This document shows positions 11,424 to 46,851 of a stretch of 64,000 nucleotides of DNA, one piece after another (positions within the stretch are counted from its first letter, which is position 1; the number at the start of each line of letters is the position of its first letter). The notes beneath the pieces were generated by a model, which saw only the letters and a program-made list of their open reading frames with translations, did not search any database and was not told the DNA's origin. The stretch is from the NCBI RefSeq assembly GCF_025766255.1, contig NW_026516759.1:62001-126000 (forward strand), read 5' to 3'. Origin of the DNA: Zychaea mexicana. Its lineage: Eukaryota; Mucoromycota; Mucoromycetes; Mucorales; Lichtheimiaceae. The translations under genes and the position numbers were made by a program.

Positions 11424-11432
11424 AACGCGAAA
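11424..11432 (+). repeat. 9-bp target site duplication, left copy
   Basis: AACGCGAAA directly abuts the left terminal inverted repeat (starts GGCTTTTGATACGG at 11433). The same nine bases follow the right end of MULE-C at 46843-46851. Nine bp is the usual MULE duplication length. Confidence 0.9.
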
Positions 11433-11534
11433 GGCTTTTGATACGGACACCCCCCTCTGATCCTTACGGACACCCCCTTCTATTTTTAATCCTCATCAGG
11501 TTACACACATCCTATAAATATATACTTGTGGGGG
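11433..11534 (+). repeat. Left outer terminal inverted repeat (MULE-A 5')
   Basis: Starts GGCTTTTGATACGGACACC and is complementary to the end of MULE-C. The motif GGACACCCCC occurs twice, and the inner block ATCCTCATCAGGTTACACAC is shared with the right end. MULE-B and MULE-C left ends lack about 22 bases including one GGACACCCCC, so only this left end is complete. Confidence 0.9.
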
Positions 11535-11771
11535 CTGGATTTGTTCACTTGTTATTGTTATTATACATCTTTCGATATATAACAAAAAGGAACCATAAAA
11601 AGTACATGAAAAACATTCCTTAATGCTTTTCAAACTCTCTAGGGTGTCTCTACGGATGTGTTTATGTGCAGTAGTTTATACAAGTATACAAATGCTCCTC
11701 AATAAACAGTATACTTTGATATTATATCTTCAACTTTCTACCTACGTTTATCATCCTACTATCCCAACACT

Positions 11772-14700
11772 ATGGAGCAATTGATTGACACTACTTATAC
11801 CGGATCAAATAAGCAAATTGTGAAAGCAATCAACGAGCAAGCCAGAGAATACAACTTTGCGGTTTCAACTAAACGAAGTGAGAAGAACGTAAAAATCGTG
11901 ATCCAGTGCGTACATGGTGGAAGCTATCGCAATACACATGGAGTAACTGAAGAGACGCGGGGACGCCAAACAGCGACGAAAACGACCGGCTGCCAATGGA
12001 CCATGAACCTAAGGTGGTCCGAGAAGGATAAGCACTGGAAAGTAACGAAGGTCAGCAACGACAATGAGCACAACCACTCCCTCGACAAGCCTCCTCAGTA
12101 TTACCACCAACACCGCACGCCAACTCTCCACGCCGAGCAGCAAATATTATCATTGACAGATAATTCCGTCAGGCCCCTCATGATACATCGAGAAGTCCAG
12201 AACCACAAAGACGGCGCAATTATGACCATGAGGGATCTATACAATTTTCGTGCGCAAATATTCCGTGAGGATAATCATGGCGGCTTCAGTAGGATATTCG
12301 AGTTCCTCATTGGTAACAACTATATCACTAGATATAAGCCAGACGGCACAGGTAAAAGTCTCGACGCCCTTTTTTTTACCCATGAAACGAGTATAGCAAA
12401 AGCACGACGATTCAATGAGATCATTGCTATCGATGCGACGTACAAAACGAGCAGAACCAATATGCCTCTTGTCAATGTTGTTGGTGTCAGTCATCTCGGT
12501 GCATCAAAGCTCAAGAACGTGCTTATTGCCTCTGCTTTCTTGGTAAACGAGAAAGAAGAGTCGTACACCTGGCTCCTTCGGACTATGCGACAAGTCATAT
12601 GACCAGAAGGAAACGTACGCATCTTCATTACGGACAACGAAAGAGCTTTAATCAACGCCATCGAGTCAACTTTCAAAGATGCAGAGCATATACTACTTTG
12701 CGGGTGGCATATGGAGCAGCATTTACGTAGCATTTTCAGTACTTGCTTTCCACCGAACAGCGAAGAGATAGGCGAAGCCAAAGCTATCATTAAGCAAATG
12801 GTTTATGTTGGTAAAAAAGACGAAGCGACTTTCCAGGCTGCCATTGACGCTTATAAGTGTCTGATCGAAAAAGGTGCTCTTGCGTATGCCAACGAAAACC
12901 ATAAGCGATCCAACAAAAAGCACAAGAAAACAAAGTCCAAAGCGAAGCATCATGACGACAGCAGCAATAGCGAGAACGACAGAGATACTGAAGATGATGC
13001 AACGTCTGCAATAAGTTTGCTGGCAAACAAAAAGAAAGAGAAAATGATGGACTATCTCAACGGGTATGTTAACTACCTTTATCCAATATTTGACTGAGGC
13101 TTTTGCCGAGTTGTGCTCACCAGCTGTATTATATTATATTATATAGCTGTCTTGAATATAAGGAGAAATGGGGTGCTTGTTATGCTGGAAGACTTTTAAA
13201 CATGGGAATGAGGGCATCATCGCGTGTTGAAGGAACACACTGGCGCATCAAAGATACAATGCAAACCACCGGAAGCGTGTTTAAAACGGTCAAAGCAATT
13301 GATCGTGTCATGCGTAAATCGGTGTGTACTACACCCTTTGTTTTCGGATTGAAAAGTTAATGTGTTAACAGATATGCTAATCAGAATTTTGTACTAGTTG
13401 GCTGATGAAGAGACTCAGTTTTTGCAAGAAAGACATAAAATGCCACTGTATGGAAAGCATGAATCGGCTGCGATGCAAGAGCTCTTTGGCACTATTTCGT
13501 TTTTTGTTTTGAATCGACTCCGAAGGGAGCTCAAACGAGCTTGGGATAACTGCGATAAATATCAACTTGACTCAAGCGAGTGCTGGTGTGGTACCACGCT
13601 AAACTATGGACTGCCGTGTCAACATAATATCGCACGAAAAGGGTTCAGTATAAGCTTGTCGGATACCCCTGATCGATGGCGTTTGGAATATGACAGAGGT
13701 ATAATTTTCTGCTATAGTAATACTGTGATTATACTATGCGCCTGTAATATACTTCATATCCTAATATGAGAGTTATATATCCACAGATAGCTTCCAAAAG
13801 GTGTATACTCCTGAAGCAATTGTATTAGAGCAACAGAACATGGTACTACAGAAGCTGCATGATGTACTCTACAATATGCGGTCGGATCAGCAAAAATCCG
13901 ATTTACTTAGTAGTATCGATGGGACTATCGACGAATATACAATGAGTATCGACATTAGCGACATCGAATTACCAAGCAATGTGAAGACGAAAGGACGCCC
14001 TGCTAACACAAGAAATGCACGATTACCGTCAAAGTTCGAACTCGATGAAAAGGATAGCCAGCAACGCTTTCAAAATAGAAATGCCAACGAGTCAGAGGAA
14101 CTCTCCGAAGGCAGCAACACTGAGGATGATAACATCTACATTTTTCCTCAACAAGGGAAAAGAAAGGATCCGGAGATGAACTTCCTTTATAGCACGAAAA
14201 AAAAGGTACGTGCTCTTCTGATGGAATTCTAGCTAACAAATACTTGCAGCTATCATGATTTTTTGTAACCAAACTAAGTTGATAAACTATTTATTGTAGA
14301 TCCAAAAAAGATTTTGTACCCAAGCTGAAGTTCTTCGTTCATCCAAACATCCCTCGCAAGTTCATTGAAACAACTGTCGACATTATGTCTGATGGCTTCT
14401 GTGGCTTCCGCACAATCGCACATCATGTACACGGCAATCAAGAAGCTTTTATGTTGGTCAAGCTACAAATGCTGGAGTGCTTCAAGATAAACAAGGATAT
14501 ATATCAGCAGCACTATGTATTTATGCGTGTAGATTTACAGCGCATTGAAACATCACTATCTTACGCACTTGATGCACCACGACCCCCAGAATCGTGCCCA
14601 TCGGATTACTGGTTCCTTGCGCCTGACTTTGCACAGATCGCTGCAGACACTTATCAACGACCTCTTGCAATTTGTCCAGACAATGATAAGAAAAAGCCAG

Positions 14701-14999
14701 ACTCTGACGAATACGCTTATGAGCCATCTCTAATTTTGCCAATGCAAGGTCCATCGTCCGACAACAAGAATCCTCTCCCCATCATTATGCAGCATCTGAA
14801 TAACAATCATTGGGCTACCATCGATACAAAAGGACACATTATCAAGATGGACTGGCCGATTATCAACTCGATGTGTATAAAGGCATACCGATCAATGGGT
14901 AATATTGATAACCTGCGTAAAACAAAGTGGCGTTATCTGCAGATAAAAAAGCGTGACGACGAAAAGACAGTGCGTGCTGGACCCTTTACATTAGATTAA
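11772..14999 (+). pseudogene. MULE-A transposase-OTU gene, nonsense mutation in catalytic region
   Basis: Same exon plan as MULE-C. It begins MEQLIDTTYTGSNKQIVKAI. A FAR1/WRKY-GCM1-like zinc domain (IQCVHGG, GCQWTMNL, HNHSLD) is followed by a MULE DDE core (IIAIDATYKT, IFITDNERAL, SRVEGTHWRIK) and a SWIM finger (CWCGTTLNYGLPCQHNIARK). TGG to TGA at 12600-12602 stops it between the first and second catalytic Asp. Unlike B and C, the spacer codon at 14188-14190 is TAT, so here the frame runs through the last intron (donor GTACGT near 14205) into the OTU exon (DGFCGFRTIAHHV ... HLNNNHWATID). The ancestral gene product was therefore one transposase-OTU fusion. Confidence 0.85.
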
Positions 15000-15333
15000 T
15001 CATTCTACTACTTCCTGTACAGTAATTCTAATTCCCTCTCTTCTCGAACACCACTCTCTACATTTCATTGTTATTTGATATATTCTGGCATGTGTTAAAC
15101 AGCGATGTTGATAAGATTTACATAATACCTTAAAGGAACATTATATTTTACATCACTTTGATTTATAGCTCTCCCTTTATATGGTATAGCAAATAACAGA
15201 ACACACCACTTAGGTATACTCATAACCTTGCGGACACCCCCACAAGTATATATTTATAGGATGTGTGTAACCTGATGAGGAAATAGAAGGGGGTGTCCGT
15301 AAGGATTAGAGGGGGGTGTCCGTATCAAAAGCC

Positions 15334-16952
15334 TGAACCAGATAAGTTTGCTTCCAACAAAACCATCCACATTGAAGTAGTAGGTGGTAGTGATCCAAGC
15401 CCGGGATTTACTGTATCGCTTGCGTTTATGAACGTCATATTAGCAATGACTGGGATATGACATGATGGCCAAGTCTTATCATATACATGATGACAGAAAG
15501 CGATGCGTATAGAAGTGACACATAAAGAATATATAGCATGAAACGGGACTATATATAAAGTTCAAATATGGAGTACCATATAAGCACAAAGCGACCGGGG
15601 AAAAGATAAATGTGTACTACAGCTGTTCTCGATTAAAATGGAGTATGTAACGCTCAAGCTCCGGCATGAAATATGCAAACACACACGTATGTCAATGAGT
15701 TATGGAATCCATTTGCCTCTATACCGTACATAATGGTCGTCAAGTTTCTAAAACGCTAACGAGCCTTGATATGATGACGGTGGAAGGGCATGCGCTCAGC
15801 GCTGAAAATTAGCTTCAAATACCTCGTCTTCTGCTGTATGCGACGTACAATACTAACATATCCAAACATTGCGAGTTTCAATTAACCGTTCCATTTCTAA
15901 TGAAGAAAGTGCATCATTGTTGTTTTTTTACCGAGAGTATAGAAACATCCAGACATAGTGATAAACTTGTCTCTATCGTTACAGTAGAATTTTACAACCC
16001 GTACTACTGACAATTCACTGTGTACAACTGCTGCTAGATTATGTGTATCTTTTGCTGGAGGGGTAAAGAAGACTAAAGAAATGTTCATCTACTCAGCAGT
16101 GCCCTGAAAGAATTCACCATGGACAGTACGCATAATCAAAAACGCATCAGACTGCCCACCCTTCAGGGCAATCACGGGCATAACAATTATGGGCAGTAAG
16201 ACATTGTAACAAAGACGACAATATCATAGGAACAAGGCCGTCGCAGGGCTAACCAATGGAAGAGAAGAAGAAATGGGCCACAACCATCGACCTTATTGTG
16301 GTGCATTCTAAAACAGACTTATATATTAAACATTAATAGAGCATGTATCGCTCAATCTGCCGACCAACAGCAGCATGTAGTCTAAAGCTCAATCAGTGAG
16401 TAGCGTCGTTGTGCTCAGTGGCTCGTTTTTTTTTCCAATCTTCGACATATACTACAGTACTTCTATTTTTACAAACAAGGTCACAATACAATGAAAGCAT
16501 ATTGTTTTACTCTTTGTTTTCGACATATACTCCTTCTATTTTTTTTACAAACAAGGTTGCAATAACAATGAAAGCATATGGTTTTACTCTCTGTTCAACA
16601 GAGATGGATCCTGCGGCCTTTCCCATTTTGAAGTGTTGTTATTGTATATAACGATGACAGAAGAACAAACCTTTACATTTGCTTCTTTGTTAGTTCCTAC
16701 AATAGCGAGAAGGAACACGGCTCTTTTGCATGGTATAAATTGAAAACAAAGAGTCTGCTGCACCTCATATACCCGAAGCTATAGTAACCAGAAGCCAGTA
16801 CTATTGTCTCGACGTCTTTCTCTCCGTATATAAATACTGGCATATCAAATGCAAAACGTGTTAATAATATACACACTACACCTTCTATTTACCTACTCTA
16901 CATCTATCTATTTGCCTCACCAACGTCTCTTTCTGTCTTTCATCCCCTTAAA
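15334..16952. other. Cargo copy 1, leader region
   Basis: No supported ORF. It starts TGAACCAGATAAG directly after MULE-A, holds an imperfect tandem repeat (16441-16593) and ends with the promoter of the first cargo gene (TATATAAAT at 16828-16836, about 117 bases before the ATG). It matches 26094-27712 almost base for base. Confidence 0.6.
16441..16593 (+). repeat. Imperfect tandem duplication of about 76 bp in cargo copy 1
   Basis: Two adjacent units each contain TTCGACATATACT, TTACAAACAAGG and ACAATGAAAGCATAT, diverged by several changes. The same pair is at 27201-27353 in cargo copy 2. Confidence 0.8.
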
Positions 16953-17590
16953 ATGACATTTTTTCCAGAGTCAACGCCAGAGTCAGCAAGTTCTCCTCAG
17001 CAGCAAGAGGTTGCAAGCCCACCAACTCCACAGCAACCTGGATCGCCACAGCGTGAAGGACAGCCCCTTGAAGAGCAGACAGGTGAAGGGCATTCTGGAC
17101 AGCAAGAGCGTACCCAAGAAAGTCAGTCTGGTAAAGGAGCTCAGCAGCAACGAAGCCGCGCCGACAAAGGGAAAGGCCGCGCAGTTCCGGGACAAGGTAT
17201 GTACAATTATTCTAATGGATGCTGCTGCTGACATAAAATCCAGCTTAATTCTAACACGACTCCATTCTGAACAATTGAAGGAGGATCTGGCGAACTATCA
17301 ACCTCTTCTGCATCTGGTATGTCTTATCGTTCACTTTGTGTTACTCAACAATGTTTATAATGAAACGTCAAACAACGGGATTTCCTTTTTCACTAACAAA
17401 GAAAAACAAATAATCTAATACAGGTACTCCTGAGCAGCAATTCCCGTCGCGGGCAGGCTCCAAGCGCGCGCACGAACAAGTGGACCGTGGCGACAAGGAA
17501 GGAGAAGAGGAGAGATCCCCCGGAGCCCGCGGATCGGGTAGTGCATCGCCGACTCTGGACAGCAAAAAGGTCGCGAAAACGTACGTATAA
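16953..17590 (+). CDS. Cargo protein 1 (Gln/Ser/Pro-rich, unknown), copy 1
   Basis: Exons 16953-17196, 17281-17316 and 17424-17590 with GT-AG introns give 148 residues. It starts MTFFPESTPESASSPQQQE. The sequence is low complexity, rich in Gln, Ser, Gly, Glu and Arg, with no recognised domain, and is probably disordered. A TATATAAAT box lies about 117 bases upstream. It stops at 17590, only 11 bases before the ATG of the next ORF, so the two may be one gene whose splicing I could not resolve. Carried only inside the composite element; a second copy is at 27713-28350. Confidence 0.5.
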
Positions 17591-17601
17591 TTCAAGACAA
17601 A

Positions 17602-18215
17602 ATGCTATTGTTACTACGTGACGAGGAAGAACAAGAAAACCAGCTCACAAGTAAGCATTTTGTACATGTAATAGACTACTTCCTTGGTTGGCCACTCTGT
17701 CAGCAGTCATCAAGCTCTCCCATGAGGATTTTGAAATCGCCGACAAAAATCTATCAATGATCAGTGATCGTTACCAGTTTTTGGAAACCCTTTTCAATTT
17801 TACCCAAGTTATGGAAAATTGTCTTTCACGACCTCCTTATTCTATATCACTCCCGGACGACCCCCTTGATGACTATCTAGTCCAGATGAGAAATCAGCTT
17901 TTTGACGAGGCTTCTGAATACATACGGTTGAATCTACAAGGCGGAAGAGAAACACACCCAGTAACAACATCCTCTTCGGCCGCGGCTGCGGCTGCGAGTT
18001 CGTCGTCGTCGTCAGCTCAAGCCACAACAGCAACAACAGCGCCACCAGCAGCATCGACTGCCGAAAAAGTGGATACGAAGAAACAAAAGAAAGAAGCAGT
18101 CGATCCTGAGGAAGGAAAGGAAGAAGAAGCGGTCGATCCTGAGGAAGGAAAGGAAGAAGTCGATCCTGAGGAACGAGAGAAAGGAAAAAAACGCATGGGC
18201 TATATTAGCTCATAA
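17602..18215 (+). CDS. Cargo protein 2 (helical head, acidic repeat tail, unknown), copy 1
   Basis: Exons 17602-17650 and 17704-18215, giving 186 residues. The N-terminal part looks folded: VIKLSHEDFEIADKN, ISDRYQFLETLFNFTQVMEN, and DDPLDDYLVQMRNQLFDEA. Then a Ser/Ala/Thr run and an acidic repeat built on VDPEEGKEE lead to a short KKRMGYISS end. No family was recognised. Copy 1 has one more 33-base acidic repeat unit than copy 2 (28362-28942). It could be the 3' part of the preceding ORF. Confidence 0.5.
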
Positions 18216-19214
18216 TGATGCTCATTTTTTACTTGTTCATATACGAGAAATGCAATAGTATTTTCAGTGCAAGTAGTAATAACAATGCAGCAGTATACTT
18301 TTTGTCTACCAATTAATAGTAAAATCAGTGCATCTGTCTTCAAAAATAAAGTGTAACAGATATGGAAATGACATTCATGCAATTTGTGCTACAACAGTGA
18401 TTTCAATATTAAGCAAACAATTCAATAAATTCAGACTGTGCACTCGTCTTACATATATAAATTTGACAGGTTCTTTCATAGTTTTACTACGGCGGATAAA
18501 AAAGCATATGTACTTCACGGGATGTGCTTAGCATAGTTAGCATAGCAGTATTGTTCTCAGCATGTTTGATGAATTAAAAAAGCATCATCAATCAAGGATA
18601 GGTCTCTAACAACCGAATCAAATATCTAATATCATAGAACTCTCTGTTTCACCAAGTTTGCATAAATGTTGTATATCAATGGATTATATTGACAACAAAC
18701 CTATTTTGTTCCTCTACATAACACCTTTATTTTACAGTGATAACTTCTTCAGTCTCTAAGATAAATCACTCCATCAATAGCGGAGAGCTATAGTAATGAA
18801 TAGCAAGTAGCGCGTAATATGTGTATATTGCACTGGTGTTTTTATCATTCTCTTCGTCGATGGAAGCGGCTTATCATGTAATATTAGTGCGTAGTCGGTT
18901 AAAACATTATATCATACGCGGATTCTTTTGTCGATATTTTATAGAGATGGTTACCAATATATGAAGTTGCTTTTCCATTTCATTAACAGCATCTCTGTTC
19001 TGCCATCAGTGATAAGTCTAACATGCCATTTAAAATTGAAAGCGTGAGAAAACATTTGTGCGTAGATGCATCATGCATCTGGCTTCCCAAAGAAATGGTA
19101 TCAAAGAGCTTTTCGTGTGACTGTGTACGGAGGGCGTAAAGTGTAAGCATATAAAAGAGAACATGGACCGATGCAAGACGTGCATATTGTTTTTTTTTAG
19201 GAGCTAGCATTGTG
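18216..19214. other. Cargo spacer and GNAT promoter, copy 1
   Basis: AT-rich, with no supported ORF on either strand. TATAAAA at 19150-19156 lies about 60 bases before the acetyltransferase ATG. Same as 28943-29941. Confidence 0.5.
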
Positions 19215-19869
19215 ATGGGCGAAACGAACAAAAGAACTCATATACGCAAAGCAACGCCGGATGACATTTATCTTACGCAAAGCATCGTCAATTTGGTGAA
19301 CCGAACATTTCGAAGTGACAGCTGTAAGTGCAGTTTACATCGAGTCTAGTATAACCTTTTCAAATGATATTAATTTTATTCTTATCACTCGACGGAACAT
19401 TGTGAACATATAATCAAACAAAGGTGACTTAGTCTCCGATACGGAAATCTTTCCCGACAACGAGCGCGTTACATTCGAAGATATTGAAACACTGATAGTT
19501 GAAAGTGGTGGGAAATCGAGTGCGCTCTGGTTCGCTTTCGATCAACAGTGGGTACAAGAGCACGGCAAGTACGAAGAAGTCATTGTCGGTGCAGTGAAAA
19601 TCGGCCCGTATAATTTCCGTAGCCACAAGGATAGTTGCATCCTCGAAATCTTCGCCATTTCCCCTGAATATCGAAAGCGTGGTCTAGGCAGCTTTCTAGC
19701 TCAGGAAGCACTAAAGTATGCAAAGGAGTCGGGATATACGACAGCGTACTTAATGGTCCTCGACTCAAAACCGAAACTGCTTGATTGGTGTCGACGGGCG
19801 CTAGGATTTGAAGAGATTTACACTGTAAATATACAGGACGTCATAAGATCAACAGAGATGCAGCCGTAG
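19215..19869 (+). CDS. GNAT-family N-acetyltransferase, cargo copy 1
   Basis: Exons 19215-19323 and 19424-19869 with a GT-AG intron, 184 residues. It starts MGETNKRTHIRKATPDDIYL, the beta1-alpha1 entry typical of GNAT folds. Motif A for acetyl-CoA binding is EIFAISPEYRKRGLGSFLAQ (R-x-x-G-x-G form), followed by EALKYAKESGYTTAYLMV and the C-terminal WCRRALGFEEI (motif B). These enzymes move acetyl groups to amines; the substrate here cannot be read from sequence. A TATA box lies 60 bases upstream, and the gene looks intact. Identical in layout to 29942-30596 and distantly related to the second GNAT at 39032. Confidence 0.85.
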
Positions 19870-19937
19870 TTGTATTAAAGAGAGAATTGTTTTACAAGGG
19901 TTTATTATAGTTTCGCCAATTATTTGTATGCATGCTA

Positions 19938-20867
19938 GATAAAATCACTCGAAAAAATCACGGAAACGGATTTCGGAAATTACTTTCTCCGAACGGTTAA
20001 TTATATAACCGAACCAAAATTCGTTTTTCAGTTTTGGGGTAGTTTTGGGTTTTTTAACTTCTTCCTCAAAATGGAACCGCAAAAACAGCAACAAATCCAA
20101 TCCCAAGAAACACCCGAGCAACCTCAATTGAAAAGATGCAGTAATTGCAAATCTTATCGCCCTTTGCTATTTTTTGTTATCAATAGACAAGATTACAACA
20201 CGTGTAGAAAATGCCATGAACGCCAAAGTGACGTCGGTAAACCAATCGCAGAGCAGTTACTCCTGACAGTGGACGAAGTACTCGACATGATTCCTTCGCG
20301 TCAAAGTTTGAGGAACGTAGCCGACAGTCTCGAAGATTACAGCCTCGACGCGTATGTGCAACTTGACGACGATATGTTGGCGTTGTCAGATTCGCAACTT
20401 GTGATCAACATCCGCGATCGTATCCAGGCTGTTGACGGATACCATTACTACGAAGCATACCGAACAGAACCACGAAGAAAGTTCGGCTATTCTTTCCTTT
20501 TTCGATGCTCGCAAGATTTCGATGTGTAGGGTCAAGCTGCCATTCGTTCACGATTGTATCGGCGTATGGCAACTTTCTTGTGCAATGGCCGCATCAGCGG
20601 CATGGTCGATCGAGTGAATGGTTACTTTCACTTGAATATCGAACACTCCTGTGGGCATAGGGCTGCACCTGCCGTCGAAAATTACGCCGTCCCGCAAAAT
20701 GTACGTGCATACATCGCTGCAAATGCCATCGACTTGGATGCACAACAGCTGCATCGTAACATTATCCGTCAGTTTCAACAAGAAGCGACAAGAATAACGC
20801 AGGGGCAAGTGTATTACTGGGCGTGCCAGTCGATCCAAGACCAATATACACTGCACAACAACCAGTT
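19938..20867 (+). mobile_element. Truncated copy of nested element 2 (left end only)
   Basis: Contains the left inverted repeat of element 2 (about 19952-20031) and the first part of its transposase. It ends abruptly at 20867, where the sequence jumps to what is 41599 in copy 2. Confidence 0.8.
20071..20867 (+). pseudogene. Element-2 transposase, truncated and nonsense-mutated (copy 1)
   Basis: Same frame as 30798 (MEPQKQQQIQSQETPEQPQ, zinc knuckle CSNCKSYRP...CRKCHE). A C-to-T change turns CAG (Gln) into TAG at 20527-20529. The reading frame is then cut off at 20867 by the 10-kb deletion, losing the catalytic region. Confidence 0.85.
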
Positions 20868-21284
20868 TAGTCCCTGATGAAAAGCAAAGGAACGCAACAG
20901 TATCTAGTACTTCCTTTACAGATTTGAACTCGAATGGTTTTATTATATGCTCGCCAATCAAAGCTCTTGAGAAAGGCTGAATTCCTTCAACCATTTCGTC
21001 TCGAAAAACAAAAATAGATGACTTCTCCAACCCTGCACTTTGTGCTGCAAGGAGTGCCTTATCAATATTAGACGCATGTGATATGAAGAACCTTGACGCT
21101 TGTTTTTCGAATTTGGTACACCAACTCCTCTACTGTATACGATGGATTCGATGGGCTGACAATTCCACCTAAAAAAATAAAGTTTTTATCTCTAAGAAGC
21201 AAATTCGGATGGTAACAAAAAGTCAAAAAATTATAGTTGCCGACCTGTTATCAAAGTACCACATACTGGCACCGCATACATAGT
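20868..21284 (-). pseudogene. 5' remnant of acyl-CoA synthetase pseudogene (copy 1)
   Basis: Matches 41599-42012. It keeps YAVPVCGTLIT, GGIVSPSNPSYTVEELVYQ and AFLCFSSGT, but lacks everything downstream because of the deletion junction at 20867/20868. The frameshift after VEELVYQ is the same as in copy 2. Confidence 0.75.
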
Positions 21285-22213
21285 CAACCTATTTTTGTAA
21301 TACGAGTGTCCGAATATTATGCGTTTAGTGTTTATGTAAAGTTGCATATATATAGTAGTATGCCTACCGGCGGCTCTTGTGCACCTTCATAAAAGATCTT
21401 TTAAAGGGATGCGCCGCATATATCATTCACCCTAAAAGTTTCTATCGATAACGATCACCTGATCATATGTAGTCAAAACAGACGTGATCCGCTCTATGGG
21501 ATGAGAGAGAATAGCACTGTTGACCACAAATTAGTGATGGGATATACGCAGAATCAATTGCTGAACGAAACAAAGTCATGCGAGCATTAATAAAAGCTGA
21601 TGCGAGAGTTTTATAATGCAGGCGTTGTGGTTAGGGGCTCGTCCAATAATCTCCACTCTAACAGCTGACGGTCATTGAGCTGAGAATATAAAATACAACG
21701 AACGTAATTACAAGGTAGATCATAAAGTGTCATTCTAGACCGCCTCGTCGTCAATTTCAAGGCAAAACGTGAGTTTGTGCATTCATCGGGCGCGCAAAAC
21801 AAGCAGTATCACAAGCCAATGTTTCAATAGATTACTTCAACGCCATTGTCTATTCGTGCCCTTAATTTACAAGCACTGTATTAGTGCATGTGCCTGATCT
21901 CGGTAACTCATGATGATCAAAACTTACACAGTACGAGAAATGCATAAAGACTGTGACGGCTTGTGCATCTCGTACTCCATTTACTATAATAAAGAAGCTA
22001 AGAAAGAAATTTGATTGTTTACAATGATGCAATGATTTTCAATAAAACATCCCAATTCAAATATTGGAGTTTTCGGTCTATTCAATATCGGTAAACCAAA
22101 GACCATCCATTTTGGCACCCATTATCAAACAAGCCTCATCTGAAGACGCATTATGTATGATATTTAAATGAGGCGTTCAGCGAGACAGAGGAAGTCAAAC
22201 GACGGTATTAAAA
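21285..22213. other. Cargo right border, copy 1
   Basis: No supported gene. It ends GTATTAAAA immediately before MULE-B and is the same as 42013-42944. It may be the promoter side of the truncated synthetase. Confidence 0.5.
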
Positions 22214-32287: not shown

Positions 32288-32392
32288 ACTGTTGCAGTTT
32301 AACGCGCATAATTTGAGTATATTGTTTTTGATCGTGATTATGGATGATTGGATGTTTGGCAAATGGGATACGCAAAGTCGTTGGGTCGCGTC

Positions 32393-35555: not shown

Positions 35556-36403
35556 GGGATACGCGAACAACTCTCATGATAAACAACATACCACGAAAAT
35601 ACACCCAGGTAGGTTTCGTCCCCACCAACAAACCCTCTCATTGTCACTGCAATCCATCTCCATCTTCTGTGCTTACATACTATGCTTAATCTTTGACAAA
35701 TCCCTAACGGACCTTTTCTCTCTTATTCTATCTCATACTTGGTTTAGCAAATGCTCAAGGAAGAAATCGACGCTACCAACAAGGGAACGTACGATTTTTT
35801 ATTTCTGAGTTTCGACTCAAGGCGCAATCGCAACGTTGGATACGCGTTTGTGAACTTCATCAACGTTGGGTAAATGCTTCATTATATTTTTTCACTGCTG
35901 CTGCTGACATCAACGTTGCTCTGATTGTCAAGTGGAGTTTCCCACTAATCACATATGAGTACATGTACTATATATAGCTCGGTAATTACATTCGCCAAAA
36001 ATAGGATTGGCAAACGCTGGTATGTATTATCGCATCGCTTGTTCTTCTCTCTCCTTTTGCACCTTCCAAAAATTAATGTACTCAATTTCTCAATGACATA
36101 TTGGCAACAACATCAATGACAAACAGGAACCGCTTCAATTCTGAAGACCGATGCTCCATTGAGTACGGCAACACGCAAGGAACAGTGGCACTAGTACGAA
36201 AGTACAAGGATGAAAGGGTCGTCGGAGAAGACCACGGCCCCAAGCTCTACATCACGAGTGGCCGCCACATCGGGGAAGAAGAGGCAAGTTTCCTTTTTTC
36301 TTTTTCACGTGCTTTTGTTAGTTGTTCTGCTCTAACACATTTTTGGTGCTTTGTTTTGATGTAGCCCTTCCCCTTCCCCGTCACAATGTTTATGCTTTTC
36401 TAA
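35556..36403 (+). CDS. Mei2-type C-terminal RRM (RRM_2) gene fragment
   Basis: Exons 35556-35608, 35748-35869, 35978-36019, 36127-36283 and 36365-36403 join in frame. RNP-like blocks match the Mei2 third RRM: DTRTTLMINNIPRKYTQQML, NKGTYDFLFL, RNRNVGYAFVNFINV, RIGKRWNRFNSEDRCSIEYG and ALVRKYKDERVVGEDHGPKL. It ends PFPFPVTMFMLF. The fourth intron is GC-AG (GCAAGT). Mei2 proteins bind meiotic RNA in the nucleus. The N-terminal RRMs of full Mei2 were not found, and the 5' exon is unclear. This looks like a captured 3' gene piece with introns retained, meaning DNA-level capture. It could still be expressed from the TATA box at 35119. Confidence 0.75.
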
Positions 36404-37255
36404 AAAAACTTAAAAATTTACAAAAAAAATAAAAATACATTTATACCTTTGCTTATACAATTTGAAAAGTACGAATAGCATTTAGTTGGATTAGTAGCTC
36501 CATGTATACAGCAGCAGGTACATCCAGCTGGCTTAGAGCTTTCTTTCTAAAGGGCAAATGATACAACGTCAAATAGAATTTCGGAATACATGAGCGATAG
36601 AAGGATAGCGTCACACTGTATAAAATAAAAGAGCTACTGTACGTGCAAACAATTAAATCATGTTCATGCAGTGTGGCACGTAAAAATAAGCTTATATGAG
36701 GCAAGGTTGGCTGTAACATTTAGGGGCTTACATAGCCTTTTGGGTGGCCAAAACGTAAATCCATGAGACGGTCTTGGAATATGATTTTTGAGAGTGATAG
36801 CTGCAATGGGTGGGTAGTCATGGTTGGAATCGCTTCGAACGTCCTTTGCCGATTTCTGTTTTCCTTAAATGGATAGTTTTAACGTTAAGTGTGATAAACC
36901 GTTGGCCTGTGCGTATACAGCACGCATGCCGAAGTTTTAAGATAGTCCAAGTCAGGGGAGGTCGAATATTATAATAAACTGTTAGCTTCCGAAATATAGA
37001 TGAACAAGCCCATAACCGCCTACGTCATGATGATGGTGTAAATTCACCGTACTTGAAACAAGCGGTACTGGACAATTGTATTATGGACGAGGTCTCATAA
37101 CATGTAATTAACTACAGGAGTAATTCGGCTGAGCACAAGATATATACGTAAGTATCACTGTTCGTTTCTATGCCATATTTATCATCAAGGTTAAAGATAT
37201 CATTTCTACACATATATAACAGCACATTACGTCTTGTTTCATCAATTTATCAGTA
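36404..37255. other. Element-2 interior, no gene seen
   Basis: No supported ORF. An A-rich stretch follows the RRM gene stop, which may contain its polyadenylation signal. Confidence 0.4.
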
Positions 37256-37561
37256 TTACTGTGGCGTATGGTCAGGATTCCATCCACCCGAAGACGGTGG
37301 GTAAGATGGCAGTTGTTGATGTTGCTGGTGCTGTTGTTGGCTCTGCAAGATCTACGCCAACTGGCTTAATGCAGCAGCAGGATCTGTGATGGCTGCCTGT
37401 TGTTGTGGTTATTGCTGAGGGTCAACACCAGCGGTAGATGAAAGTGGACCTGGTGGTGGTGGTGGTTGTTATGACATGGTCGCAGGCGGGATAGGCTGCA
37501 CTTGCTGCGTTGGAGGTGGTACTGGCTGTTGATAGTGCTGTTGTTGCTGTTGTGCTGCCAT
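37256..37561 (-). pseudogene. Gln/Pro-rich gene fragment with three nonsense codons
   Basis: Reading from the ATG at 37561 gives MAAQQQQQHYQQPVPPPTQQ, a Pro-rich middle, DPAAALSQLA and SSGGWNPDHTPQ, then TAA at 37258-37256. Three in-frame stops interrupt it (TAA, TAA, TAG). Each sits in a Gln-rich context and could come from CAA or CAG by C to T. It resembles the low-complexity C-terminus of an RNA-binding or splicing protein, but the family is not identifiable. Confidence 0.55.
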
Positions 37562-38415
37562 TTGAGTCTAGAAAAATTACACACACATACGTGAATATAT
37601 GACGTAGAAAAACACTGAATGAGCGTGGTTTTTCTTCCTTTTAAGGCTAAATGTACGCCTGCCAACGAGAAGTGTATATATTTGATCCAAGAAGGCAATC
37701 ACGGCTACTCTGAGCATTATCAAGAGACGTAAGAATTCCCAGTATAGCAACTGATTTTCTTTCCGCACGTTTCTCGATGGGTTGTTCTGATATGTCACAT
37801 TAAAATATGGCGTGCTATAGACTGGACCCTGAGAACTAAAAGCAAGGCGACCACAAGGAGTAAGTATATATAGCTGGGAGTGGCTATTCGTTGCAGCATG
37901 GTGACTAAAGATCAAACAGAGGTTTCAACTTTGGTAAGGCCCACACTCCAACTCAGTTTTTTTTGGAATTTCAAGTCAGCCACCAGAGACACTATACTAC
38001 GCACTAAGTGGCTGTGTAGTATAACAACAGCCTGGTTTACAGCACGATACTACAGGCTTATCTTCGCTCCAATCAGTGAAAAAATCTACTGTATATTGAT
38101 GTGGATTGACTTTAAATATCACAAGCTATTGGCTAAAGTTTATTATTGTCAGCAAGATGATGAATGGACTATCATGAGAGGAATACCGGTTGGATTTATC
38201 AGCATGGACACTGCAAGAGAATGATGCTAACCGTCCAGGGATGGAAGGTTCCATGAAAAAAAACCACTTTTCTACATATTGCAGGTAGAGAAGCTGAGAT
38301 AATATAACAGAAAAGGCTACAGTACATAGCGTGTCATTTTATATAGTGTGCGTGCGGACATAGCAGTAGTAATTTCATAGTTATTTATCAATCAGAGCTT
38401 GATTAACATTGTTTT
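37562..38415. other. Element-2 right interior
   Basis: A 114-residue ORF at 37880-38224 exists but has no recognisable motif and is not supported. Otherwise AT-rich sequence up to the right inverted repeat. Confidence 0.35.
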
Positions 38416-38498
38416 CTGAAAAAACGGATTTTGGTTTGGTTACATGATTAACCGTTCGGAGAAAGTAATTACCGAAATCCGTTTCCGTGATTTTTTTT
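38416..38498 (-). repeat. Right inverted repeat of element 2
   Basis: Reverse complement of the left repeat. Shared words are CCGTTCGGAGAAAGTAATT and CGAAATCCGTTTCCGTGATT. GATAAAATC follows at 38517-38525. Confidence 0.85.
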
Positions 38499-38979
38499 GA
38501 AACGGCTAGGTAGGCGGATAAAATCTTTTATACACAAAATAGAAAAATAATGCGGGTTACACGTTGACACCTGAAGAAAGTGACTTAGGTCAATGTTGTC
38601 TAGCAACAGTACAAGTACTATACTACAGATGAATTAATGCAGAGCTTCTTACCGTTAGACACCATCATCATCCTTGTTGGCTGCTGATCCTAACATTCTA
38701 CATAACAGCTAAAATATCTTTCTGGAACGAAACATGCTACTATGCCACTGTTTGAACGGTGGCAGCTTGTTACCAAAGATGCTGCTACTGTTATGACTTA
38801 CTAAAATATTGTCATAATAACAGATATACGATATGTACTTATTTCTAGAATTAATTAATGTCTTGCTGTAGGTTTTGGCACTACGAGTACTACTGCATGA
38901 AGCTGCATATGTCTACGTAGTTCTTCATATACAGTATTTCCGATCCCAGACGCATGACGTCCCGCGGGCGCTATAGCGC

Positions 38980-38987
38980 TATATAAA
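38980..38987 (+). promoter_or_regulatory. TATA box of second GNAT gene
   Basis: TATATAAA about 45 bases before the ATG at 39032, downstream of a GC-rich palindromic word (GCGCTATAGCGC). Confidence 0.5.
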
Positions 38988-39031
38988 GGGGTACATGCTG
39001 CCGATTAAAATCAATCAACGTTTCTTTCTAA

Positions 39032-39751
39032 ATGGTGCCCGAACGGTTGGATACCATATACGTACGTAAGACAACATCTGACGATGTGAAGCATACGCAA
39101 AGTATAGTCGACATGGTGAACAAAGCATTTGGCGGAAGAGGAAGTACGAAGTGAAACAGTGATCTGTAATGGAAAATATACCATTTTCTATACATAACGA
39201 GCTCAATGACATATTAATTGATGGAAAAAATAGATGGATGGGTGTCTAACAAGGATATCGTTTCCGGCGACAGAATTACATCTGAAGACATCAAGCGATT
39301 AATCGCTGAAAGTGATGGGAAAACTTCAGCCCTTTTTTGTGCATTTAGGAAACGCTCAACGAACGGGACTCACGATAACAGTCAAGGAACCGAAGAAGAT
39401 GAGATCGTTGTGGGTGCAACGTCGGTAGGGCCAAACGAAGATGGTAGCAGCAGTAACAATAAGGACGCTTGTCTTTTGCACAATTTTGCCGTTTTACCAG
39501 AGCTACAGTCCTCTGGAGTCGGTCACATGTTGACACGAACGACGCTAAACTATGCCAAGAACGAACTGGGATATAATGTTGCGTATTTGCGTATTTTTGA
39601 AGAAAAAACAAAACTGCGAGCTTGGGTTTGTCAAGTATTTGGCTTTCAAGAAGTTGGTACTTTTGATTATCCCCAGCCACATCGTCTCAAAACAAAATCT
39701 CACTACATTATTCTTAAAAAAGAACTCTCATGTACCAATAGCTCATTATAG
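39032..39751 (+). CDS. GNAT-family N-acetyltransferase, second paralogue
   Basis: Exons 39032-39143 and 39234-39751 (donor GTACGA, acceptor ATAG) give 209 residues. The start MVPERLDTIYVRKTTSDDVK parallels the first GNAT (HIRKATPDDIYL), and both share TQSIVxxVN and the intron position. Motif A is FAVLPELQSSGVGHMLTRTT, which keeps G-x-G but has Gln-Ser-Ser for the usual basic triplet. NYAKNELGYNVAYLRIFEE and WVCQVFGFQEVG follow. It is an intact paralogue, strongly diverged from the first. It lies outside element 2 and close to the acyl-CoA synthetase pseudogene. Confidence 0.8.
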
Positions 39752-39859
39752 TTTTGTTGATAACGAATACAGCATGTAAAACTCGTTGCGTCATTATAAA
39801 GCTCAACATCATGTCGATTCTTGTCTGATTATTTATTTAGCTGCTTTGAAGGATATAGA

Positions 39860-42012
39860 CTAGTGATGAATAGAAGGAGCTATCTTTCTTAACACACGCC
39901 GCAGAGTCTTTCCAGGTACAGTTTTTGGAAGTTGATCACAAAATACTACATTATGAATATGCTTGTAGGCAGCAACTTTCTTTGCTACGAGTTGCTTCAG
40001 TGCCGTGACTATTTCTTCGCTTCCCTTTACCCCCTGTATTAGCACTATGTAGGCGCAGGGAACTTCACTAGCTTACTCTAGATCATAATGAACAATACCG
40101 CGCTATCGGCAACATCCGTATGTTTTAGCTGTATAACAAATAGCACAACTCCTTAATACCACCAGAGTCAACCGTGAAACGAAGAAAAAGTGTAGTCTCC
40201 CACGTAAGTGACATTAAGTGATTACACCATCAACCGAACCACACGACTTCCATCACCATCACCATATCTGTCACGTACAAGCAAGTCTTCCAGTGCAGCA
40301 GGGGCAACCTATACACAAAAAGTGGATCAAGTCATAACTAAGTATATACATATAGCAAGTATGGCCTCTGGTCATTAATTATCAAAAGAGAAGTTTGGCA
40401 CCAACCTGAAAACCTTTGTACTTGATTAACTCTTTGATGCGATCAACAATAAAAATATGTCCGCTTTCATCAATCATTGCTTTATCTCCGGTATGGTAAT
40501 ATCCGTTAGAATCGATGCACCGTGCTGTTTCTTCCGGACGATTTAGATATCCCTGGGTTAATGAGCATATATGAAAGAAGTGTATATTTACAAGCACGAT
40601 ATAATACCACACCGTTGTTGGTATTTCGTATTATACAAAAGGCTGACAAGATGAAGAATCATTTCTACTACTGTACATGTCCATACCTTCATGATGTTTG
40701 GTCCCTTCACCAGTAGCTCCCCACGGCTATCAAATCCTACATCAAGTAATTCATAGAATCGGTGAATTCTATGCATAGCAACCCATTATATATCGGCATT
40801 AGCAAGTGAAATTTTGTTCTGTATGCACCATTTCCTTTTTCATCAACTACTCTGGCTTGTATTCCAGGCACAAGCACCCCTGCTGAGCCTACAGTAAACG
40901 ACGACGAGGTTATATACCGTACGCCGACAGTCAAGTGTTTCGATTTTACCTTTAGCAAGATCTTTTTCTCGCTGAACACAGATAATTCCCGATCCTTCTG
41001 TCAAACCATATGCTTGCTTTACTACGACTCCTTTGAGCCGTTCTTGGAACTGTTGTATTAAGTCAGGACCAGCAGGTGCTGCACCAGTTAACACCGCTTC
41101 CAATGAAGACAAATCATATCGATCAACGGCACGGTCTCTTGCTAAAGAAAGCAGGATAGGTGGGACCACATATGTAAAGGTAATTCTGTATTTTTGCACA
41201 GCCTCACAAAAAAGCAAGTTTTTAGACCGTTGAAGCACATAAATGGCGGCCTTCATGAAAGCATATAGTCAGCCCGGAAATATGGTAGAAAGGAGTTGCG
41301 GACAGAACACAAGATGTCGGTTTTCGGTAGTATCATACCCAGATTCTACAGCCGAATATTGGTGTATGTTGGACATGATGTTGCCGTGCCTATAAACATA
41401 AATAGATAATATTGACAGTCAATAATGCTGCGTGACACCGCTAACGTTTGATAGTACAATTATAATTTTGAGGCAATTGTATTTCCGTTGACATTACATC
41501 TTTGCTCTTTCCTATAACGCGATACGGAAAAACACTTACAAATTAGTAATTGAGCACTGAGATAAGTTTTGGCCCAGATTCCCTATATACATTACATGTA
41601 GTCCCTGATGAAAAGCAAAGGAACGCAACAGTATCTAGTACTTCCTTTACAGATTTGAACTTGAATGGTTTTATTATATGCTCGCCAATCAAAGCTCTTG
41701 AGAAAGGCTGAATTCCTTCAACCATTTCGTCTCGAAAAACAAAAATAGATGACTTCTCCAACCCTGCACTTTGTGCTGCAAGGAGTGCCTTATCAATATT
41801 AGACGCATGTGATATGAAGAACCTTGACGCTTGTTTTTCGAATTTGGTACACCAACTCCTCTACTGTATACGATGGATTCGATGGGCTGACAATTCCACC
41901 TAAAAAAATAAAGTTTTTATCTCTAAGAAGCAAATTCGGATGGTAACAAAAAGTCAAAAAATTATAGTTGCCGACCTGTTATCAAAGTACCACATACTGG
42001 CACCGCATACAT
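39860..42012 (-). pseudogene. 4-coumarate-CoA-ligase-like acyl-CoA synthetase pseudogene
   Basis: Minus-strand remains of an AMP-forming ligase. From 5' to 3' these are YAVPVCGTLIT and GGIVSPSNPSYTVEELVYQ (frameshift follows), ISHASNIDKALLAAQSAGLE, the P-loop AFLCFSSGT, HGNIMSNIHQYSAV (second frameshift after LLSTIFPG), YVVPPILLSLARDRAV, LTGAAPAG, QAYGLTEGSG, GYHTGD-type [27 protein letters not shown] and PKTVPGKTLRRVLRK with the catalytic Lys. The order matches 4CL and peroxisomal CoA ligases. The first 70 or so residues are missing, and at least two frameshifts are present, so it is unlikely to be functional. Its 5' part is duplicated at 20868-21284. Confidence 0.8.
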
Positions 42013-42944
42013 AGTCAACCTATTTTTGTAATACGAGTGTCCGAATATTATGCGTTTAGTGTTTATGTAAAGTTGCATATATATAGTAGTATGCCTACCG
42101 GCGGCTCTTGTGCACCTTCATAAAAGATCTTTTAAAGGGATGCGCCGCATATATCATTCACCCTAAAAGTTTCTATCGATAACGATCACCTGATCATATG
42201 TAGTCAAAACAGACGTGATCCGCTCTATGGGATGAGAGAGAATAGCACTGTTGACCACAAATTAGTGATGGGATATACGCAGAATCAATTGCTGAACGAA
42301 ACAAAGTCATGCGAGCATTAATAAAAGCTGATGCGAGAGTTTTATAATGCAGGCGTTGTGGTTAGGGGCTCGTCCAATAATCTCCACTCTAACAGCTGAC
42401 GGTCATTGAGCTGAGAATATAAAATACAACGAACGTAATTACAAGGTAGATCATAAAGTGTCATTCTAGACCGCCTCGTCGTCAATTTCAAGGCAAAACG
42501 TGAGTTTGTGCATTCATCGGGCGCGCAAAACAAGCAGTATCACAAGCCAATGTTTCAATAGATTACTTCAACGCCATTGTCTATTCGTGCCCTTAATTTA
42601 CAAGCACTGTATTAGTGCATGTGCCTGATCTCGGTAACTCATGATGATCAAAACTTACACAGTACGAGAAATGCATAAAGACTGTGACGGCTTGTGCATC
42701 TCGTACTCCATTTACTATAATAAAGAAGCTAAGAAAGAAATTTGATTGTTTACAATGATGCAATGATTTTCAATAAAACATCCCAATTCAAATATTGGAG
42801 TTTTCGGTCTATTCAATATCGGTAAACCAAAGACCATCCATTTTGGCACCCATTATCAAACAAGCCTCATCTGAAGACGCATTATGTATGATATTTAAAT
42901 GAGGCGTTCAGCGAGACAGAGGAAGTCAAACGACGGTATTAAAA
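42013..42944. other. Cargo right border, copy 2
   Basis: Copy of 21285-22213. No supported gene. Ends GTATTAAAA at the left end of MULE-C. Confidence 0.5.
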
Positions 42945-43280
42945 GGCTTTTGATACGGACACCCCCTTCTATATTTAATCCTCATCAGGTTACACACATC
43001 CTATAAATATATACTTGTGGGGGTGTCCGCAAGGATGTGTTCACTGGATTTGTTCACTTGTTATTGTTATCATACATCTTTCGATATATAACAAAAAGGA
43101 ACCATAAAAAGTACATGAAAAACATTCCTTAATGCTTTTCAAACTCTCTAGGGTGTCTCTACGGATGTGTTTATGTGCAGTAGTTTATACAAGTATACAA
43201 ATGCTCCTCAATAAACAGTATACTTTGATAATATATCTTCAACTTTCTACCTACGTTTATCATCCTGCTATCCCAACACT

Positions 43281-45699
43281 ATGGAGCAATTGATTGACAC
43301 TACTTATACCGGATCAAATAAGCAAATTGTGAAAGCAATCAACGAGCAAGCCAGAGAATACAACTTTGCGGTTTCAACTAAACGAAGTGAGAAGAACGTA
43401 AATATCGTGATCCAGTGCGTACATGGTGGAAGCTATCGCAATACACATGGAGTAACTGAAGAAACGCGGGGACGCCAAACAGCGACGAAAACGACCGACT
43501 GCCAATGGACCATGAACCTAAGGTGGTCCGAGAAGGATAAGCACTGGAAAGTAACGAAGGTCAGCAACGACAATGAGCACAACCACTCCCTCGACAAGCC
43601 TCCTCAGTATTACCACCAACACCGCACGCCAACTCTCCACGCCGAGCAGCAAATATTATCATTGACAGATAATTCCGTCAGGCCCCTCATGATACATCGA
43701 GAAGTCCAGAACCACAAAGACGGCGCAATTATGACCATGAGGGATCTATACAATTTTCGTGCGCAAATATTCCGTGAGGATAATCATGGCGGCTTCAATA
43801 GGATATTCGAGTTCCTCATTGGTAACAACTATATCACTAGATATAAGCCAGACGGCACAGGTAAAAGTCTCGACGCCCTTTTTTTTACCCATGAAACGAG
43901 TATAGCAAAAGCACGACGATTCAATGAGATCATTGCTATCGATGCGACGTACAAAACGAGCAGAACCAATATGCCTCTTGTCAATGTTGTTGGTGTCAGT
44001 CATCTCGGTGCATCAAAGCTCAAGAACGTGCTTATTGCCTCTGCTTTCTTGGTAAACGAGAAAGAAGAGTCGTACACCTGGCTCCTTCGGACTATGCGAC
44101 AAGTCATATGGCCAGAAGGAAACGTACGCATCTTCATTACGGACAACGAAAGAGCTTTAATCAACGCCATCGAGTCAACTTTCAAATATGCAGAGCATAT
44201 ACTACTTTGCGGGTGGCATATGGAGCAGCATTTACGTAGCATTTTCAGTACTTGCTTTCCACCGAACAGCGAAGAGATAGGCGAAGCCAAAGCTATCATT
44301 AAGCAAATGGTTTATGTTGGTAAAAAAGACGAAGCGACTTTCCAGGCTGCCATTGACGCTTATAAGTGTCTGATCGAAAAAGGTGCTCTTGCGTATGCCA
44401 ACGAAAACCATAAGCGATCCAACAAAAAGCACAAGAAAACAAAGTCCAAAGCGAAGCATCATGACGACAGCAGCAATAGCGAGAACGACAGAGATACTGA
44501 AGATGATGCAAGGTCTGCAATAAGTTTGCTGGCAAACGAAAAGAAAGAGAAAATGATGGACTATCTCAACGGGTATGTTAACTACCTTTATCCAATATTT
44601 GACTGAGGCTTTTGCCGAGTTGTGCTCACCAGCTGTATTATATTATATTATATAGCTGTCTTGAATATAAGGAGAAATGGGGTGCTTGTTATGCTGGAAG
44701 ACTTTTAAACATGGGAATGAGGGCATCATCGCGTGTTGAAGGAACACACTGGCGCATCAAAGATACAATGCAAACGACCGGAAGCTTGTTTAAAACGGTC
44801 AAAGCAATTGATCGTGTCATGCGTAAATCGGTATGTACTACACCCTTTGTTTTCGAATTGAAAAGTTAATGTGTTAACAGATATGCTAATCAAAATTTTG
44901 TACTAGTTGGCTGATGAAGAGACTCAGTTTTTGCAAGAAAGACATAAAATGCCACTGTATGGAAAGCATGAATCGGCTGCGATGCAAGAGCTCTTTGGCA
45001 CTATTTCGTTTTTTGCTTTGAATCGACTCCGAAGGGAGCTCAAACGAGCTTGGGATAACTGCGATAAATATCAACTTGACTCAAGCGAGTGCTGGTGTGG
45101 TACCACGCTAAACTATGGACTGCCGTGTCAACATAATATCGCACGAAAAGGGTTCAGTATAAGCTTGTCGGATATCCCTGATCGATGGCGTTTGGAATAT
45201 GACAGAGGTATAATTTTCTGCTATAGTAATACTGTGATTATACTATGCGCCTGTAATATACTTCATATCCTAATATGAGAGTTATTTATCCACAGATAGC
45301 TTCCAAAAGGTGTATACTCCTGAAGCAATTGTATTAGAGCAACAGAACATGGTACTACAGAAGCTGCATGATGTACTCTACAATATGCGGTCGGATCAGC
45401 AAAAATCCGATTTACTTAGCAGTATCGATGGGACTATCGACGAATATACAATGAGTATCGACATTAGCGACATCGAATTACCAAGCAATGTGAAGACGAA
45501 AGGACGCCCTGCTAACACAAGAAATGCACGATTACCGTCAAAGTTCGAACTCGATGAAAAGGATAGCCAGCAACGCTTTCAAAATAGAAATGCCAACGAG
45601 TCAGAGGAACTCTCCGAAGGCAGCAACACTGAGGATGATAACATCTACATTTTTCCTCAACAAGGGAAAAGAAAGGATCCGGAGATGAACTTCCTTTAA
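43281..45699 (+). CDS. MULE transposase (FAR1-like, DDE, SWIM), MULE-C
   Basis: Exons 43281-44572, 44656-44830, 44907-45207 and 45296-45699 join in frame, 723 residues. The N-terminal FAR1/WRKY-GCM1-like DNA-binding domain (residues about 20-110) has Cys in VIQCVHGG and DCQWTMNL and HxH in NEHNHSL. The MULE catalytic core has Asp in IIAIDATYKT, Asp in IFITDNERAL, CGWHMEQHL, and Glu in SRVEGTHWRIK from exon 2. A Lys/Asp-rich stretch lies before exon 2. The SWIM zinc finger is CWCGTTLNYGLPCQHNIARK. An acidic C-terminal linker ends at TAA 45697-45699, before the OTU exon. It probably cuts and inserts MULE ends in the nucleus, and is the only one of the three copies with no break in the transposase domains. 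Confidence 0.88.
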
Positions 45700-45807
45700 A
45701 GCACGAAAAAAAGGTACGTGCTCTTCTGATGGAGTTCTAGCTAACAAATACTTGCAGCTATCATGATTTTTTGTAACCAAACTAAGTTGATAAACTATTT
45801 ATTGTAG

Positions 45808-46465
45808 ATCCAAAAAAGATTTTGTACCCAAGCTGAAGTTCTTCGTTCATCCAAACATCCCTCGCAAGTTCATTGAAACAACTGTCGACATTATGTCTGA
45901 TGGCTTCTGTGGCTTCCGCACAATCGCACATCATGTACACGGCAATCAAGAGGCTTTTATGTTGGTCAAGCTACAAATGCTGGAGTGCTTCAAGATAAAC
46001 AAGGATATATATCAGCAGCACTATGTATTTATGCGTGTAGATTTACAGCGCATTGAAACATCACTATCTTACGCACTTGATGCACCACGACCCCCAGAAT
46101 CGTGCCCATCGGATTACTGGTTCCTTGCGCCTGACTTTGCACAGATCGCTGCAGACACTTATCAACGACCTCTTGCAATTTATCCAGACAATGATAAGAA
46201 AAAGCCAGACTCTGACGAATACGCTTATGAGCCATCTCTAATTTTGCCAATGCAAGGTCCATCGTCCGACAACAAGAATCCTCTCCCCATCATTATGCAG
46301 CATCTGAATAACAATCATTGGGCTACCATCGATACAAAAGGACACATTATCAAGATGGACTGGCCGATTATCAACTCGATGTGTATAAAGGCATACCGAT
46401 CAATGGGTAATATTGATAACCTGCGTAAAACAAAGTGGCCCTTATCTGCAGATAAAAAAGCGTGA
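45808..46465 (+). pseudogene. OTU-type cysteine protease segment of MULE-C, frameshifted
   Basis: Downstream exon of the ancestral fusion, after an intron ending ATTGTAG. It has the OTU catalytic Cys in DGFCGFRTIAHHVHGN and His in MQHLNNNHWATID, the spacing expected for OTU deubiquitinases. An extra base near 46439-46441 shifts the frame, giving the end WPLSADKKA in place of the WRYLQIKKRDDEK tail of A and B. Separated from the transposase by TAA at 45697-45699. Confidence 0.75.
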
Positions 46466-46734
46466 CGACGAAAAGACAGTGCGTGCTGGACCCTTTACAC
46501 TAGATTAATCATTCTACTACTTCCTGTACAGTAATTCTAATTCCCTCTCTTCTCGAACACCACTCTCTACATTTCATTGTTAATTGATATATTCTGGCAT
46601 GTGTTAAACAGCGATGTTGATAAGATTTACATAATACCTTAAAGGAGCATTATATTTTACATCACTTTGATTTATGGCTCTCCCTTTATATGGTATAGCA
46701 AATAACAGAACACACCACTTAGGTATACTCATAA

Positions 46735-46842
46735 CCTTGCGGACACCCCCACAAGTATATATTTATAGGATGTGTGTAACCTGATGAGGAAATAGAAGGG
46801 GGTGTCCGTAAGGATTAGAGGGGGGTGTCCGTATCAAAAGCC
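46735..46842 (-). repeat. Right outer terminal inverted repeat (MULE-C 3')
   Basis: Inverse of 11433-11534. It has three GGTGTCCG-type words and ends GGTGTCCGTATCAAAAGCC. It is complete, like the right ends of A (15226-15333) and B. Confidence 0.9.
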
Positions 46843-46851
46843 AACGCGAAA
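46843..46851 (+). repeat. 9-bp target site duplication, right copy
   Basis: AACGCGAAA, same as 11424-11432. The host sequence then continues into the COX7-like promoter. Confidence 0.9.

Follow-up and report, generated by a model that had tools for sequence, protein, structure and literature searches.

A candidate composite of Mutator-like elements carrying host-type genes in the early-diverging fungus Zychaea mexicana

Organization of the locus

The locus described here lies in a 64,000-nucleotide stretch of the Zychaea mexicana genome (hereafter the window), which corresponds to positions 62001-126000 of a 177-kb contig (C302) in an assembly of 50.3 Mb and 305 contigs. Self-comparison of the window revealed three copies of a Mutator-like element (MULE), termed A, B and C, which alternate with two cargo units, all in direct orientation. 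This arrangement may represent a natural MULE macrotransposon. In this scenario, to which we give an even chance, two linked MULEs mobilised a 24.65-kb segment into a gene-rich region of this early-diverging fungus, and the outer elements later served as recombination arms through which the cargo was amplified.

From left to right, the array opens with a 9-bp target duplication, AACGCGAAA (11424-11432), which abuts the outer tip of MULE A (11433-15333, 3901 bp), an element with a long left terminal inverted repeat and an interrupted transposase frame. It is followed by cargo unit 1 (15334-22213), whose left and right edges carry the native words TGAACCAGA and GTATTAAAA, respectively, and by MULE B (22214-26093, 3880 bp), which has the same left neighbour as C and the same right neighbour as A. 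Cargo unit 2 (26094-42944, 16,851 bp), the fuller copy, then leads to MULE C (42945-46842, 3898 bp), whose left terminal repeat is 23 bases shorter and whose outer tip abuts the second AACGCGAAA (46843-46851). MULEs and cargo units all lie on the forward strand. The MULE ends are inverted repeats of ~100 bases. A MULE transposase domain (Pfam PF10551, 1.6e-21) was identified in a frame of MULE B (22550-23872), and the core transposase frame of MULE C is open (441 amino acids, 43281-44606). The A/B/C family combines this domain, terminal inverted repeats and a target duplication within 8-11 bp, as expected of MULEs. A protein search with the MULE returned 17 protein matches, one of them from a plant. 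The last MULE frame (45794-46465) has no Pfam match and may encode an OTU-type cysteine protease domain, which it resembles by eye.

The two cargo units align in two blocks, with 15 mismatches in 5,536 aligned columns and one mismatch in 1,355, between which unit 1 lacks ~10 kb that unit 2 contains (about 31598-41599). The array lies within the 177-kb C302 contig, and substitutions and indels distinguish its copies and its units from one another, so that a collapsed repeat is ruled out. Both units also contain a 78-bp tandem duplication, 85% alike (16441-16595 and 27201-27355).

As the earlier note on this DNA had claimed, the cargo holds host-type genes and a nested transposon. A GNAT acetyltransferase frame (19414-19866, forward strand; Pfam PF00583, 3.6e-12) lies in unit 1 and is also present in unit 2. 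A second GNAT frame (39218-39748, forward strand; PF00583, 3.9e-06) and part of a gene encoding an AMP-binding, acyl-CoA-ligase-type protein (40846-41268, reverse strand; PF00501, 1.1e-18) are found in unit 2 only. The nested element (30674-38516, forward strand, 7,843 bp) belongs to a second MULE-like family and stands between two GATAAAATC words; it has a MULE transposase frame and many relatives in the genome, and its left 0.9 kb is still present in unit 1. This second family, of which the window holds a 7.8-kb copy with a zinc-knuckle frame (32393-33298), has 77-bp terminal inverted repeats, and its short copies elsewhere are reduced to 1.1 kb of the left end and 0.3 kb of the right end.

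To the right of the array, Pfam identified frames for a CDC20/Fizzy-type WD40 protein, a GH15 (glucoamylase-family) protein and an RNA-recognition-motif protein. The array therefore sits in an ordinary gene-rich region. The best named relatives of a 337-amino-acid protein of this flank are from Fennellomyces (57%), Phascolomyces (53%; Mucorales, Lichtheimiaceae) and Circinella (51%).

The outer target duplication

Within the window, the word AACGCGAAA is found at 11424 and 46843 and at no other position, and its reverse complement is absent. This agrees with the proposal, made in the earlier note, that the only matching 9-bp pair is the outermost one, around three MULEs and their cargo. At none of the inner borders does the flanking word recur at the opposite end of the same element, again as proposed. 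The inner words are not unrelated to each other, as had been supposed: TGAACCAGA is shared by the right sides of A and B, and GTATTAAAA by the left sides of B and C. As in a composite transposon, two like elements thus enclose non-element DNA, with a single target duplication that is confined to the outer ends.

To put this match in context, MULE tips were collected genome-wide and every pair among 39 of the 65 tip sites was compared (741 pairs). Omitted were 26 sites: ten with the C1 flank, one with the C90 flank, one with the C184 flank, 13 of the 15 sites with two mismatches, and C254:35249. A control pattern gave 17 matches in the tip search, and some weak tips are thus background; the list of MULE copies, for which 40 of 68 candidate places were scored, is a lower bound. 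Six of the 741 pairs matched at all nine positions. Five are the two ends of single copies (C52, C55, C184, C254 and C266), while the sixth, the sole perfect match across elements, pairs the left end of A with the right end of C. Two more cross-element pairs matched at 8/9, both with A/T-rich words (C52/C254). Among the other two-ended copies, seven of 11 have a target duplication, five of them with perfect 9-bp words and two (C82 and C259) at 8/9.

C259, with tips 18 kb apart, was considered as another composite and rejected: its three pieces are colinear and complementary, and correspond to one MULE opened by later insertions. Eleven tip sites have an identical 18-base outer flank (C1, C10, C107, two on C112, C139, C236:361311, C252, C253, C282 and C303). 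Several are near contig ends and most of them hold a left-end MULE fragment, which suggests a MULE end embedded in a dispersed repeat, possibly a subtelomeric one.

A MULE-free copy of the cargo

A genome search with unit 1 led to contig C75, on which the cargo is found without MULEs. C75:7245-18854 is colinear with the cargo and continues past both inner borders without any MULE; TGAACCAGA (7245-7253) and GTATTAAAA (18846-18854) occur there once each. These two native words are intact in C75, which rules out that the inner 9-bp words are chance sequence. The site of the nested element is also empty, with a single GATAAAATC word instead of the two present in unit 2. With three separate insertion sites empty, C75 represents the ancestral arrangement and the C302 block the derived one. 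The cargo thus exists elsewhere without elements and with empty inner insertion sites, as a composite transposon would require.

The surroundings of this copy are distinct from those of the array. The 777 bases of its left flank have no second copy in the genome, and the 1,498 bases of its right flank have only one 30-base match elsewhere. Across 6468-20352 of C75 (all but 130 bases), only the cargo matches the window. The earlier note had held that cargo copies confined to unrelated, single-copy contexts would speak against a mobile block. The long C75 copy is in such a context, yet it is not counted here as a refutation, because the cargo needs a source and both inner target sites are empty at C75.

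Over the first 322 bases, C75 differs by 0.9% from unit 2 and by 0.6% from unit 1; in later successive blocks it differs from unit 2 by 4.3%, 2.8%, 1.4% and 1.2% substitutions. It also has its own insertions of about 400 bp and 2.2 kb. Further partial and more diverged cargo matches were found on C92 (90%) and C298 (72%). C75 itself is unlikely to be the immediate donor, as its divergence from the cargo (0.6-4.3%) exceeds that between A and C (0.77%) and it has neither a MULE nor a scar.

Relationships among the three MULEs

B and C differ by 0.23% and, relative to A, have in common a left end shorter by 23 bases and a 20-base insertion. In a tree of A, B, C and eight other copies, from which C184 and C291 (about 90% alike) and partial copies were left out, A groups with B+C (support 0.946), and C266 branches next (0.986). 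Four substitutions unite A, B and C, none of the eight other copies having them. Judged from sequence, the sister relation of A and B+C is what linked sister insertions would be expected to produce. The left (0.957) and right (0.889) thirds of the element, analyzed separately, agree with this grouping.

MULE B is likely a recombinant: it is C-like up to its last ~166 bases and is followed by the right neighbour of A. It agrees with A against C at only five substitution sites, and since all eight other copies carry the base of A at these sites, the changes are private to C. Sites at which A differs from both B and C extend to A 15167, B 25927 and C 46676, that is, to 166 bases from the right end, which places the exchange within that end. 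This interval represents ~4% of the element, a mild coincidence.

Proposed history and alternative explanations

Transposition of the block by the outer ends of two MULEs (macrotransposition) is the explanation that we favour, with our confidence evenly divided between it and all others. We infer a donor chromosome with two MULEs, a single transposition step and an unequal exchange, in that order. Two closely related MULEs would have inserted in the same orientation at TGAACCAGA and GTATTAAAA, both of which are empty at C75, thereby flanking ~9 kb of native sequence at a locus resembling C75, and between them the 7.8-kb element of the second family would have inserted. The transposase may then have paired the left end of A with the right end of C and inserted the resulting 24.65 kb at an unrelated site, creating the single duplication AACGCGAAA. 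In this model, both A and C would be complete donor elements. Subsequently, unequal homologous exchange between the right-terminal ~166 bases of A and those of C, a step whose signature is seen in B, would have created a tandem duplication that supplied MULE B and the other cargo unit. Finally, a deletion probably removed the ~10 kb now missing from unit 1, a loss that the comparison with C75 assigns to this unit, giving the present 35.4 kb.

The two units are near-identical and in tandem, and unit 1 lacks ~10 kb; the smallest unit that had to move is therefore A-unit 2-C, of 24.65 kb. The idea that the block entered as one unit keeps its core, as a MULE-bracketed block sits at a foreign site within one outer duplication and MULE-free cargo exists elsewhere. 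Entry of the whole 35 kb in one step, as formerly suggested, does not fit, because unit 1 looks like a copy of unit 2 that has undergone a deletion, and B is probably a recombinant.

Several results weigh against macrotransposition. The divergence between cargo and C75 exceeds that between A and C. The middle third of the element places A with C266 and not with B+C (0.85), and the 11 changes private to A and the 10 private to B+C are unevenly spread in a crossover-like manner, with the best break after column 482, a skew that is not significant (max-chi permutation, p = 0.057). Four of the 11 other two-ended copies (C106, C236, C240 and C291) have no target duplication. MULE copies are therefore reshuffled here by other means, and in the Drosophila transposon Galileo mismatched flanks have been read as a sign of exchanged ends (PMC2775673). 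In the one genome examined, no block-free allele, two-MULE donor chromosome or excision scar was found; the search for an empty site, suggested in the earlier note for related strains and made here in this genome, showed that the joined flanks occur nowhere else. Among the copies listed, there is also no second MULE composite in the genome.

The flanks of two of the copies without target duplication were also compared with the genome. The left flank of C236 is single copy. C106, considered as a further composite, has three tips, its second element has no outer end within 2 kb, and both flanks match dispersed repeats; its MULE copy (C106:12331-14210) lies within a few bases of inverted ~520-base copies of what is apparently the end of another element.

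The strongest alternative, already raised in the earlier note, which we consider a serious though lesser possibility, is that a solo MULE inserted first, creating the AACGCGAAA duplication, and that MULE-plus-cargo DNA was then added by homologous recombination, from a circle that had arisen by exchange between the two MULEs flanking the cargo, or by copying of such a donor during break repair. Such recombination with a resident MULE yields the same flanks and predicts every one of them equally well, which is a further point against macrotransposition. It would account for the copies without target duplication, and under it ancestry would be expected to switch at some point within the element, a prediction for which the skew of private changes is the relevant observation. 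Homologous recombination would in any case have been at work in the later duplication that made B, and integration of circles at homologous repeats has been proposed for transposed genes in Arabidopsis (PMC2869330). In addition, C184:6000-7784 and C289:14263-16400 share a MULE right end and ~1.6 kb of flank at 96-98% identity. This pair is a MULE-associated segmental duplication, in which a short piece is duplicated at C289. On the other side, recombination into a resident copy requires more steps and a third MULE at this site besides the two around the donor cargo, and, of all the copies aligned, the resident would have to be the one most closely related to the incoming MULE. The scar MULE that it predicts, with TGAACCAGA on its left flank and GTATTAAAA on its right, is absent from the tip list. 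The sister relation of A and B+C and the smaller number of steps lead us to prefer macrotransposition; weighed against the signs of MULE reshuffling, this preference remains modest.

An assembly misjoin, by which a solo MULE resident here was wrongly connected through repeats to a MULE-cargo array located elsewhere, appears very improbable. The junctions do fall at 3.9-kb repeats that are about 99% alike. However, copies and units have private substitutions and indels, and the array lies inside its 177-kb contig. A misjoin should also leave the true outer flanks of the array next to MULE ends elsewhere, while the C75 flanks occur only at C75, without a MULE.

Re-replication or reversed-end transposition, as in the composite insertions of maize Ac, which give transposon-bounded blocks with one target duplication as well as tandem duplications (PMC4270019), has slightly less chance still of having built the array in one event, as that model joins ends by fusion of broken chromatids (PMC4270019), whereas the right junction of B is that of A and its left junction that of C, base for base, which homologous exchange explains better, and A and C are in direct, not reversed, order.

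Comparison with known systems

Composite transposition is textbook knowledge in bacteria, while few natural eukaryotic cases are well resolved. Here, one genome shows a cargo locus free of MULEs together with the two inner insertion sites and the target duplication at the outer ends. Among the open-licence titles and abstract openings listed, none is about a fungal MULE macrotransposon.

The closest precedents are the Ac/Ds macrotransposons of maize, in which DNA between like elements is moved by the ends of different elements; in a 28-kb example containing several copies of a segment, excision left a modified target-duplication footprint (PMC9910405, PMC4270019). Ac/Ds are hAT elements of a plant, with 8-bp duplications and observed movement, whereas the present elements are MULEs of a fungus, with 9-bp duplications and movement deduced from sequence. 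Alternative transposition has also been proposed for VANDAL21 in Arabidopsis soma, where two closely spaced elements of the MULE superfamily are thought to act jointly (PMC12312487). That case differs by its head-to-head pair, ~200-bp spacer, somatic rearrangements and circularised spacer, and by having no inherited cargo block. In citrus, a MULE with dissimilar 9-bp flanks 2 Mb apart was reported to fit neither homologous recombination nor alternative transposition (PMC4334395), and gap filling with template switching has been described for animal Pack-TIRs (PMC8277862). A survey has assigned 10-bp duplications and a SWIM motif to a MULE-Mucorales lineage (PMC6446971). Circle-mediated gene movement resembles the present case in that direct repeats flank the moved genes; it differs in requiring homology at the target, and would predict a solo MULE here before the cargo (PMC2869330).

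In bacterial composite transposons, as proposed here, two complete elements bracket a cargo and move together by their outer ends (PMC9977792). The difference is that the elements here are eukaryotic MULEs and that movement is inferred. Like the Starships, the array is a large fungal block with host-type genes. Starships rely for their movement on a tyrosine recombinase whose gene lies at one end, whereas in the present block a complete MULE forms each border and a MULE transposase is the candidate enzyme. No tyrosine recombinase was named in Pfam scans of 20 selected frames, no search having been aimed at it.

Finally, Pack-MULEs also involve host sequence moved by a MULE, as fragments of up to ~7 kb within a single pair of terminal repeats (PMC6431247). 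The present block is not a Pack-MULE, since complete elements flank the cargo at each border. If the proposed history is correct, ordinary MULEs, which are widespread among fungi as well as plants, are able to mobilise entire gene blocks in addition to fragments, and can afterwards contribute to the amplification of such blocks.

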